DNA of 64,000 bases, from the NCBI RefSeq assembly GCF_001646655.1, contig NZ_LPZN01000003.1:1-64000 (forward strand), written 5' to 3'. The stretch's first letter is position 1, and each line of letters opens with the position of its first letter. This document shows, piece after piece, positions 9,001 through 13,100 of the stretch. This DNA comes from Rhodococcus gordoniae (GTDB lineage: Bacteria > Actinomycetota > Actinomycetes > Mycobacteriales > Mycobacteriaceae). The position numbers and the translations under genes are program-made. The notes under the pieces were generated by a model. That model made no database searches, had not been told where the DNA came from, and saw only the letters and a list, made by a program, of their open reading frames with translations.

Positions 9001-9961
9001 CCTGCAGGGGCCAGAAGAACTCCCAGACCGACACGTCGAAGGTGAACGGTGTCTTCTGCAGCACGACGTCGTCGGCGCGCATCCCGTACTCCGCCTGGCG
9101 CCAGTCGATGTTCGCGACGATCGCCCGGTGCTCGACGGCGACGCCCTTCGGCCGTCCCGTCGAACCCGACGTGAAGATGACGTACGCGAGGTGATCGGCC
9201 GTGAGCGCGCCGCGGCGCTCCTCCGGGGCGATGGGATCGCCGGAGATCTCGGACAGATCGAGGGTGTCGATCGTCAGCGCCGGGACGGAACCGGGAAGAT
9301 CGACGGCGTCGCGTTCGGTGGTGACGACCGCGACCGGCTCGGCGATCTCGAGGACGTAGGCGAGGCGGTCGGCCGGATGGTCGGGATCGAGCGGCACGTA
9401 GGCGCCGCCGGCTTTGACGATCGCATACATGCCGACCAGCAGGTCGAACGATCGGCGGACCGCGAGACCGACGCGTGCGTCGGGGCCCACACCGAGACCG
9501 ATGAGGTGACGGGCGAGACGGTTGACGCGGGCGTCGAACTCCCGGTAGGTCAGGCCCTGTCCGTCGAACTCGAGAGCGACGGCATCGGGTGTTCGGGCCA
9601 CCTGGGCGTCGAAACGCGCCGCGAGCGTGCCGGGATCGACCGTGGCCGGTGCCGCCGCATCGTCGCCGAGCACCTCGACGGCGTCGGCCAACAGCGTGTC
9701 GACCACCCCCGCGAGACCCGGGGCACCGAGCAGAGCGGGCGCGATGTTCGACAGGACGACCGGGAACAGCGCGTCGAAACCGAGCGCACCGCCCATGGCG
9801 GTGTCGAGTGTGGCGATCTCGTCGCGCAGGCGCGCGTAGCCGATACGGGTGTCACCGTCGGAGAGGGCGACACGGTCGGGTTCGATGTCCGCGACGGCGG
9901 CGAGCAACCGGGGAAGGTCCTCGATCGCCAGCGCCGGCTTGCCCGCCATGTCACCCGTCAT
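1..9961 (-). CDS. Giant NRPS, second protein of the line (partial): stub-A7-T7-C8-A8-T8-C9-A9-T9-C10-A10...
   Basis: The frame is open from 9961 to the window edge, so the C-terminus is missing (over 3300 codons are visible). The start ATG at 9961 follows an AGGAGG at 9971-9976. Approximate domains on the minus strand: N-terminal stub 9961-9659; A7 9640-8150; T7 8130-7920 (Ser near 8012); C8 7860-6550; A8 6490-4970; T8 4950-4740; C9 4690-3370; A9 3330-1800; T9 1780-1570; C10 1510-190; start of A10 at 150-1. The C domains carry the HHxxxDG motif (near 7445, 4280 and 1100), the T domains carry DDFFxLGGNSL, and the A domains carry the SGSTGRPKG loop. Specificity residues read against the PheA/EntF alignment are DVWHFSLVD for A7 and A9, the classic Ser code (also in EntF), and DVWSLALVH for A8, which I do not recognise. 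The first domain is an A without its own C, so it must pair with C7 at the end of the upstream protein. No E or TE domain is seen in the visible part. The family is certain; the product is inferred. Confidence 0.95.
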   Translation of the reverse strand, partial: MTGDMAGKPALAIEDLPRLLAAVADIEPDRVALSDGDTRIGYARLRDEIATLDTAMGGALGFDALFPVVLSNIAPALLGAPGLAGVVDTLLADAVEVLGDDAAAPATVDPGTLAARFDAQVARTPDAVALEFDGQGLTYREFDARVNRLARHLIGLGVGPDARVGLAVRRSFDLLVGMYAIVKAGGAYVPLDPDHPADRLAYVLEIAEPVAVVTTERDAVDLPGSVPALTIDTLDLSEISGDPIAPEERRGALTADHLAYVIFTSGSTGRPKGVAVEHRAIVANIDWRQAEYGMRADDVVLQKTPFTFDVSVWEFFWPLQVGARLTIAVPDGHRDPAYLAQTMIERGVTIAHFVPSMLAVYLAEPTAASVSTLRYVFASGEALPPQTVARFYEISSARLHNLYGPTEAAVDVTYFATSADDTVVPIGAAVADTGLYVLDEGLRPVPDGVEGELYLAGVQLARGYLRRPDLTSDRFVADPFGEPGDRMYRTGDLVKTNEDGQIEYIGRTDFQVKLRGLRIELGEIESALLDHPGVRQSVVVVHSDPALGDHLVAYLVTDGRDIERSELADAVRRRLPDYMVPSLFVELDEFPLGGSGKLDRKALPAPDFSSLQREYRAPSTATEHAVVSAFEQILGIERLGVDDDFFELGGNSLSATRVVARLGSDHKVRIDVREFFDAPTAAELASLVDAAMASGGDGRAPLVPQVRPELVPLSLAQQRMWFLNRFEPESAVDNIPVAIRLSGALDAAALQAAVADVLGRHESLRTVYPDVDGVGYQQVLPVDEVVPDLTPVPVSESDLIARATEIVGTGFDVTSQVPFRARLFAVSDTEHVLVLVVHHIASDGFSMGPLTRDVVTAYAARVSGDAPQWEPLAVQYADFAIWQREVLGSEDDPESVISSQVAFWRERLAGLPEQLDLPADRPRPAVASYRGASHRFVLRSELRSAVRDLARRTSTTEFMVVHAALAVLLARLSGTDDIAIGTPVAGRGDAALDDLVGMFVNTLVLRTRVDGGESFEQVLGQVRGADLEAFGHADLPFERLVELIDPERSTARHPLFQVLLAFQNLDADSLELPGLTVSALDVDAALAKFDLQVTVSDDATAEGYLVDLTYATDLFDARTMESFAERLTRILTAVATEPALPVGDVALLDDAERTDVLATWNATEHELGDARTLADLFAEQVRRSPDAVAVEFEGESLTYGEFAERVNRLARHLISLGVGPETSAGLAMRRSPDLLVGMYAVVAAGGAYVPIDPDQPDDRNGYILDTAAPVVVLTTERDGYRVPATASAPSLAIDSLDLAATPAEPITDADRIAPLRPSNTAYTIFTSGSTGRPKGVAVAHASVVNQIRWITTAYGIGPDDVVLQKTPFTFDVSVWELFGTLTVGARMVIAAPDGHRDTAYLGTVIRERAVTITSFVPSMLAVFAASASPDDCASLRTVLVAGEAFPLSVAEQFSRISAAELHNLYGPTEATVHATARPVAGTTGGSVAMGAPVWNTRAYVLDARLSPVPAGVVGELYLAGAQVARGYVGRPDLTAERFVASPFGDGERLYRTGDLVRRRNDHSGDLEYLGRTDFQVKLRGLRIELGEIETALLDHTGVSQAAAQVRHEQLVAYVVPAPNTTFDRDAAQAALSTVLPAYMVPSQFMVLDEMPLGSSGKVDRKALPDPVFETRGFRAPTTPVEEVVAGVFAGVLGVDRVGLDDDFFALGGNSLIATQVVARLGSELGTVVPVRVLFEAPGVAALAARVEQSDAQGRTPLVVQERPERVPLSLAQQRMWFLNRFEPESAVNNIPVAVRLTGALDVEALRSAVADVLGRHESLRTIYPDVDGVGYQQVLPVSEVEPDLSPIDVTETQLVQSITDLVSSGFDVSTQAPFRAQLFAVSATEHVLALVVHHIAADGFSMGPLTRDIVSAYAARAAGGEPGWEPLPVQYADFAIWQREVLGSEDDPESVISSQVGFWRQTLAGLPEQLDLPADHPRPAVATNRGALYEFTLDETLHDRIVTLARERNATPFMVVHAALAVLLARLSGTDDIAIGTPVAGRGDAALDDLVGMFVNTLVLRTRVDGGESFEQVLGRVRGADLEAFGHADLPFERLVEVLNPERSTARHPLFQVMLSFQNLETGTLELPRLTVGAVDLDITTAKFDLQFVVTETPTASGAAEYSVGLTYAIDLFDARTVERVADRFVRLLDAVTGDLSVTVGDVDLLDDAERVHLLERWNDTDRVLDGTSTLVDLFAEQVRRSPDAVAVEFEGESSTYGDFSERVNRLARHLISLGVGPDARVGLAVRRSLDLLVGMYAVVAAGGAYVPIDPDQPDERNGYILDTAAPVVVLTAARDGFRVPGERSVPSLLVDSLDLSATSAEPVTDAERTSPLRASNTAYVIFTSGSTGRPKGVAVPHGAIVNRLRWMQHEYPLTEADRVLQKTPFTFDVSVWEFFWPLQIGARLVVAVPDGHRDPRYLASVIDRRAVTVVHFVPSMLAVFVAEASVDQLTSLRHVFASGEALPPALAARTRALLTDAGLHNLYGPTEAAVDVTYHEVTDADTVSVPIGAPVWNTRVYVLDERLAPVPVGVAGELYLAGVQLARGYVQRPDLTAERFVASPFGDGERLYRTGDLVRRPDETGELDYIGRTDFQVKLHGLRIELGEIETALLDLDEVDQAVVLVRQDQLVAYVVPQPGATFDQAVAGAALSAQLPAYMVPATYVLLDAMPLGASGKLDRKALPDPVFEVRAFRAPTTSTEQVVASTYSEVLGVDRVGLDDDFFALGGNSLIATRVVSRIGAALNATVPLRLLFEAATVEDLAARLEHGVSGGPRRPLVAGERPDRVPLSLAQQRYWFLNQFDTASSAVDNIPIAVRLVGDLDVDALRAAARDVIARHESLRTIYPDSPDGPHQVVLPLDGALPELVVRDVAEAELEPEIVAFMSTTFDVTAEVPVAVRIFRVSDDEHILALVVHHVSADGASVGPLTRDLMTAYVARSRGDAPAWEPLPVQYADYALWQREVLGREDDPESLAAKQVAYWKQALAGLPDQLDLPSDRQRPPSQSFRGESLQFTISPELHRGLQELARSKNATLFMVVNAAFATVLARLSGTRDIAIGTPIAGRGERELDDLIGMFVNTLVFRSDVDPAQSFERLLEGTRETDLGAFANADVPFERLVEVLNPVRSTARNPLFQVGLSFQNLARTQLELPGLTVSSTDFELQLAKTDLQLTVFDHYDDDGAPDVIDATFTYATDLFDESTVAGFAQRFVRVLEAIVTDPATAVGDIDMLDGSERVEILESWNATDRAVEQTSTLVDLFDEQVSRVPDATALVFEGESLTYAE
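3681..3925. repeat. 245-bp near-identical repeat, copy 1 (within C9)
   Basis: This tract, running from cgttcgaacggcagg to caccaccatgaa, matches 6846-7090 at all but two positions by eye (cacccggccg against cacctgtccg). It encodes the C-terminal half of a condensation domain, including the [21 protein letters not shown] region. The flanking sequence of C8 and C9 is clearly less similar, so the tract looks like recent gene conversion or a recombination patch between modules. Confidence 0.85.
6846..7090. repeat. 245-bp near-identical repeat, copy 2 (within C8)
   Basis: Partner of 3681-3925, in the same direction and at the equivalent place in condensation domain C8. The copies have equal length and differ at two bases by eye. 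The spacing of 3165 bp is one NRPS module. Confidence 0.85.
9659..9961 (-). other. N-terminal A-like stub of the second NRPS (putative docking element)
   Basis: Residues 1-101 precede the complete A7 domain. They aligned without gaps to the tail of the upstream NRPS: about 24 of 66 residues are identical by eye, including shared DLP, P-x-x-VA, GGAL, AL and VVL positions. The first ~40 residues of both resemble the beginning of an adenylation domain (P-x-x-VA-x-x-x-G), but the rest of an A domain is absent. The position, exactly at the junction of two proteins that share module 7, suggests an interaction element. An alternative is a remnant of a gene split or duplication. The docking role is inference. 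Confidence 0.6.

Positions 9962-13100: not shown

Follow-up and report, generated by a model that had tools for sequence, protein, structure and literature searches.

How is a module of a nonribosomal peptide synthetase (NRPS) held together when its condensation (C) and adenylation (A) domains are made as two separate proteins? This question is raised by a locus of Rhodococcus gordoniae, which we analyzed within a window of 64,000 nucleotides (contig NZ_LPZN01000003.1, positions 1-64000). Two NRPS genes divide the seventh module between them: C7 ends one protein, NRPS1, and A7 lies near the start of the next, NRPS2, with a short element that we call the stub at the facing end of each protein (C-type on NRPS1, N-type on NRPS2). 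A first-pass annotation of this DNA had proposed that the two elements are a docking pair evolved from a duplicated A-domain start. We conclude, with a probability of roughly 60%, that the stubs are a conserved, non-catalytic, homologous docking pair that holds C7 to A7 at the split; that the two contact each other, and that this contact is needed for synthesis, is our inference.

The split module was located by use of profiles (hidden Markov models built from window sequences) and motif checks, and all of its features are on the minus strand. According to the list of open reading frames (ORFs) and the domain profiles, NRPS1 (10103..30964; 6953 amino acids from the first possible start) is composed of a C-A-T module (T, carrier domain), five more C-A-T modules, and C7-STUB. 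C7 lies at 10472..11812 and the C-type stub, identified by alignment, profiles, and BLASTP, at 10145..10447 (residues 6840-6940), followed by a 13-residue tail up to the stop codon at 10103-10105. The first 3320 residues of NRPS2 (2..9961) have the organization STUB-A7-T7-C-A-T-C-A-T-C-A..., at which point the sequence is cut by the contig end because the window begins at contig position 1. The N-type stub (residues 4-103; alignment, profiles, and fold) occupies 9653..9952, A7 8150..9628, and T7 7904..8125. The core motifs searched for in module 7 were all found: HHISADG in C7, YGPTE and one further motif in A7, and GGNSL in T7. Module 7 is split between C and A across two proteins, as the first-pass annotation had stated, and the span given there for the split (9659-10441) matches that of the stubs within six bases at each end. 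At the junction (9962..10105), the TAG that ends NRPS1 is followed without change of frame by 46 codons and then by a second TAG, which abuts the ATG of NRPS2; an AGGAGG lies at 9971-9976, 9 bases ahead of this ATG. The ordinary C-A junctions of NRPS1 and NRPS2, where 22-26 positions separate the end of the C match from the start of the A match, contain no stub.

The two stubs are homologous to each other and, in part, to A domains. Local alignment of the two window stubs extends over about 105 residues with a BLOSUM62 score of 138, a score reached by none of 2000 shuffled stub pairs (mean 38, sd 7, maximum 75). BLASTP gives 33 identities in 88 positions (E 3e-13 in a single comparison), in line with the 24 of 66 claimed earlier by eye. 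When a stub profile of 60 diverse rows, two of which (L004 and L026; L numbers denote loci and G numbers genomes) were later judged to be A-domain starts, was compared by hhalign with the window A domains, only the first 57 columns aligned, with a probability of 97% (P 3.7e-11); the resemblance to an A-domain start noticed at first pass is thereby confirmed. In a profile search of the PDB, the matches listed (60 of 96) likewise included A domains and CoA ligases, aligned over their first ~55 residues, and the last third of the stub had no counterpart in these listed proteins. TSGSTG.PKG and YGPTE are names of A-domain core motifs, and both are absent from the two ~100-amino-acid window stubs, which also have no Pfam AMP-binding match, in agreement with the earlier view that no catalytic core is present. 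Searches of Pfam with the window stubs gave no significant match (none for the N-type stub and two sub-threshold hits for the C-type stub), and those of NCBIfam gave insignificant matches only, so that routine annotation would miss the stub. A single stub was modeled by AlphaFold2 from 105 aligned rows as one compact domain (predicted local distance difference test, pLDDT, 83; predicted template modeling score, pTM, 0.71) with a helix at 13-26, a hairpin at 31-35/38-41, and helices at 42-55, 62-73, and 83-103. Profile comparison and the predicted fold thus describe the stub as a domain of ~95 residues, in which the start of an A domain (~57 residues) is joined to a new helical C-terminal part. 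It shares with the A domains of the AMP-binding family the helix, beta-hairpin, and helix of the first ~57 columns, but lacks the catalytic core and has a C-terminal third that cannot be aligned with them.

The stub is widespread within one bacterial family. It is present in 17 of 18 genomes sampled from the window's genus, the exception (G009) being 75% complete, and in 169 of 401 genomes and 16 of 31 genera sampled from the family (match at E <= 1e-9). When named genomes were scanned with the N-type stub, 27 loci were obtained, from genomes named as Rhodococcus, Prescottella, or Rhodococcoides, and a record of Nocardia farcinica contains a stub of 38.5% identity. Beyond the family, no stub was recognized in samples of 200 genomes from the order and 246 from the class; the six outside hits with the longest reach along the stub model proved to be ordinary A-domain or ligase starts.

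To describe where stubs sit, 233 loci were annotated with C, A, T, and stub profiles, a stub being taken as full-length if it reached model position 85 or beyond. These loci were mostly chosen for holding a stub, and the counts therefore show placement rather than frequency. The 159 distinct full-length hits comprise 61 that close a protein behind a C domain and 60 that open one ahead of an A domain; the rest are 21 internal stubs between C and A, 16 stand-alone stubs, and one ordinary A-domain start (L102). Stubs are thus not confined to subunit termini, the idea of the first-pass annotation being too narrow here, but all 158 accepted full-length stubs lie at a C/A boundary or stand alone. 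That annotation had also counted hits scattered inside single proteins as a sign of a mere relic; such hits do occur, but among the full-length stubs of these loci at C/A boundaries only.

Three kinds of synthetase can be distinguished by the disposition of their stubs. In the first, C-STUB and STUB-A are in neighboring genes, mostly with 40-235 bases between the stub matches, but with 848 bases in L115 and 10.7 kb in L106. Sixty pair rows were obtained; once five that match an already counted C-type stub to an A-domain start are removed, 55 different C/N pairs remain, located at gene ends and variable in spacing and frame, 54 of them with flanking domains. In the relatives L020, L021, L023, and L024 the NRPS genes are in frame with one TAG between them, and 40 bases separate the stub matches. 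The second kind is a fused synthetase, one protein of about 11,000-11,300 residues with two full-length internal C-STUB-A modules, whose stubs are about 6.8 kb (two modules) apart. This state was found in 39 of 75 genomes that were re-searched (a chosen, non-random set with at least two stubs each at E <= 1e-13), both stubs being in one frame in 37; the other two, G107 and G142, have one listed stub each inside frames of 11,405 and 11,152 residues. The third kind has free stub genes. G027, G033, and G119 each have two of these ahead of the giant gene, G027 with a third downstream, and in G029 two are found at a distance of about 7 kb upstream from the split pair. At L107, L099, L101, and L103 the two small stub genes upstream of the NRPS are one C-like and one weakly N-like, with a third downstream in L190, and small stub-like genes lie near NRPS genes other than the split pair at L203, L205, and L219 (g9 genomes). 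Away from NRPS genes, a free N-type stub gene is found directly upstream of a carboxylesterase gene in all seven genomes of the window's genus that were examined; in the window genome this arrangement (carboxylesterase by Pfam) is at about 7054-9030 on the minus strand of L005 (G000:C31).

Stubs are kept as pairs, also where the genes that carry them have moved apart. At least 148 of the 169 stub-bearing genomes have two or more stub matches, and re-searching the 21 single-match genomes with a broader profile revealed a second stub within 300 bases in 20. With internal stubs included, 168 of 169 have at least two; the exception, G335, has an N-type stub next to a degenerate-looking upstream synthetase. 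In G044 a stretch of 10.7 kb devoid of NRPS domains separates the C-STUB gene from the STUB-A gene. The two genes are unlinked in 7 of the 36 g23 genomes re-searched, the distance being 1.82 Mb in G388 and 1.36 Mb in G352 (both single-contig genomes, the location of the N-type stub in G352 being known from the search hit alone), and they lie on separate contigs in G132, G310, G294, G250, and G376. A protein that ends in C-STUB would be unable to complete its module by itself, and a partner in trans would therefore be needed.

The stubs are under purifying selection similar to that on catalytic domains. Among close relatives, the ratio of nonsynonymous to synonymous substitution rates (dN/dS) was 0.07-0.32 for the stubs of adjacent genes compared to 0.05-0.24 for the neighboring C or A domain. 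Where the genes are unlinked, the stubs gave 0-0.44 and the flanking catalytic domains 0.14-0.27, and free copies gave 0.17-0.40, setting aside one identical pair.

A tree of the stubs, built from 95 columns and with many forks unsupported, makes the N-type stubs a lineage separate from the C-type. Outside g9 and g13, 29 of 30 N-type stubs form one clade (support 100/99) that has no C-type stubs and also includes the three free copies from the window's genus; the one N-type stub left out belongs to G095. One type of stand-alone stub (type 1) joins the C-type stubs of g9/g13 (99/90) and the other (type 2), on long branches, joins their N-type stubs (96/80). The clade formed by internal stub 1 (99/95) takes in the C-terminal as well as the N-terminal stub of G095. 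Such a grouping would be predicted from a split in which each half received a copy of the stub, or from a fusion that merged two. The split in G095 falls where the giant genes carry internal stub 1, and its later modules differ. We consider G095 the clearest trace, in the stub tree, of a gene being split, or of two being fused, through the stub; the origin in gene fission proposed at first pass finds here one clear case, which a fusion would also explain.

The mechanism that we propose begins with an A-domain start of ~57 residues, which would have gained a helical C-terminal part to give a small domain. The C-type form, which follows C7 at the end of NRPS1, and the N-type form, which precedes A7 in NRPS2, would bind each other in trans, and this binding would hold the C domain to the A domain of a module that is divided between two proteins, allowing the chain to be passed on. 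The earlier docking proposal thus stands as to A-domain derivation, placement on both sides of a C/A split, maintenance as a pair, purifying selection, and retention when unlinked, with direct interaction as its conjectural part. When the two window stubs were modeled by AlphaFold2 as a read-through pair, each was folded (block pLDDT 72-88), but the pTM was 0.33 with no confident packing, from an alignment of 16 rows only. Several other observations also weigh against docking. By mirror-tree analysis, the partial correlation between C-type and N-type stubs given the flanking domains was 0.07 (p 0.07), and correlations were stronger for the C-type stub with the A domain (0.28) and for the C with the A domain (0.38). 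Both stub types are acidic, with mean charges of -4.6 and -9.3 over 54 pairs and no obvious charge match. Fused synthetases retain internal stubs although docking between proteins is needless there. In unlinked genomes, a stub-less A-domain gene without a carrier match sits after the C-STUB gene (L220, L222, L224, L226, L228, L230, and L233, with C-domain fragments in four), making it uncertain whether STUB-A is the partner; it is also conceivable that a STUB-A start represents an initiation module. Lastly, the internal stub of L102 falls, on a very long branch, inside the N clade, and the tree does not support a single clade for the C-type stubs that remain outside it.

Other explanations were considered. 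The stub may be a cap or spacer that packs on its own C or A neighbor and covers or props the C/A platform without any stub-stub binding, a split simply leaving one on each side. This would account for the internal C-STUB-A modules, for the unconvincing pair model, and for the correlation of the C-type stub with the A domain, but leaves unexplained why the ordinary C-A junctions of NRPS1 and NRPS2 do without a stub and why stand-alone stubs exist; we regard it as rather unlikely. Less likely still is general self-association, by which any stub would pair with any other, including internal stub 1 with 2 or stubs of different protein copies, and so shape the synthetase, the C/N pair being one instance. 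The two full-length internal stubs per fused synthetase and the free stubs found in twos upstream of the NRPS (G027, G033, G119, G029) are consistent with such an arrangement. However, G027 has a third free copy, and 20 of 21 internal stubs are closer to the C-type than to the N-type profile, which argues that the internal two are not a C/N pair.

The two remaining explanations are the least probable. A relic, the alternative entertained at first pass, would be a functionless duplicate of an A-domain start that remained after gene fission or A-domain exchange, and the A-domain likeness recognizable in the first ~57 residues is what such an event would leave. This reading is made very improbable by selection like that on catalytic domains (the dN/dS of 0.07-0.32), by conservation across 16 genera, by stand-alone gene copies, and by the stub-specific C-terminal third. 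That the two genes are a single one interrupted by a stop codon through sequencing or gene calling is suggested by the shared frame of the window ORFs and by the relatives with a single TAG. But the window has two stops and a sequence like a ribosome-binding site (AGGAGG), the 55 split pairs vary in spacing and frame, and the genes are unlinked in seven genomes; we give an artefact virtually no credence.

The docking reading can be placed in a wider setting. The internal and free stubs suggest a broader family of C/A-boundary connectors, with members gained or merged as genes split or fuse. A further possibility, which we advance tentatively and consider doubtful in its full form, is that the NRPSs of this family recast the A-domain start as heterodimerizing connectors of C and N type. 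Recombination or duplication of stubs would then permit a split or fusion at C/A with the module kept, and free C-like and N-like stubs would either partner the internal ones in trans or compete with them.

Other genes of the window lie upstream of NRPS1. The first C domain of NRPS1 gives only a partial match to the C profile and is perhaps of the starter type. An acetoacetate-CoA ligase gene and a fatty-acid-CoA-ligase-like gene are found at 31663-33627 and 34207-35874 (minus strand); the latter scores slightly below its cut-off and could be a candidate source of an acyl starter. Farther upstream are the acetaldehyde dehydrogenase gene ExaC (38853-40382) and, near it, the mycofactocin genes MftG, MftF, and MftE (41778-45500, minus strand), which exceed the NCBIfam cut-offs.

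Several reports describe, in the sections considered, conserved large NRPS clusters whose products are unknown: 'NRPS-2' in rhodococci (PMC5550956), and clusters in Nocardia (PMC4035055), some given as having 7 to 13 modules (PMC7413640). In the sections considered of another report, four Rhodococcus genomes are described as having no NRPS cluster conserved among them (PMC3848822). A literature search of titles and abstracts found no description of the stub. The covered sections of a docking-domain review (PMC9113145) name COM, PAX, and beta-hairpin types for NRPSs, and describe there no homologous, A-domain-derived pair at a C/A cut. COM domains, as described there, act at E/C junctions (E, epimerization), a short donor helix lying on a hand made partly by the C domain. 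Like them the stubs are paired terminal elements joining NRPS subunits, but they sit at a C/A junction and are two homologous domains of ~95 residues, predicted to be folded. In PaxB-PaxC, at a PCP/C junction (PCP, peptidyl carrier protein), one helix is docked in two. This three-helix bundle is also a small helical terminal pair, but the stubs are each predicted to contain a beta-hairpin along with at least four helices, the junction is C/A, and the A-domain homology reported here for the stubs is not reported for PAX in those sections. The first-pass statement that the pair is not of the COM type can thus be extended to PAX. The DHD of trans-AT polyketide synthases (~70 residues) resembles the stubs in that it too holds an internally split module (KS/DH), but it is one-sided, mostly disordered, and binds the DH surface, whereas here a homologous domain is present on both sides of the split.

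As with docking domains generally, complementary elements are found where one subunit ends and the next begins (55 distinct C/N pairs). The stub pair would extend the known class of megasynthase docking domains by a C/A placement and an A-domain origin. If the docking reading is true, it would represent a new structural class of NRPS docking, located at the C/A boundary. This boundary is one of the places at which NRPSs are cut in engineering, and a portable C/A pair would be useful in building synthetases. The stub would also be a traceable marker of the splitting and fusion of megasynthase genes, with the fused, adjacent-split, and unlinked states all found within one bacterial family.

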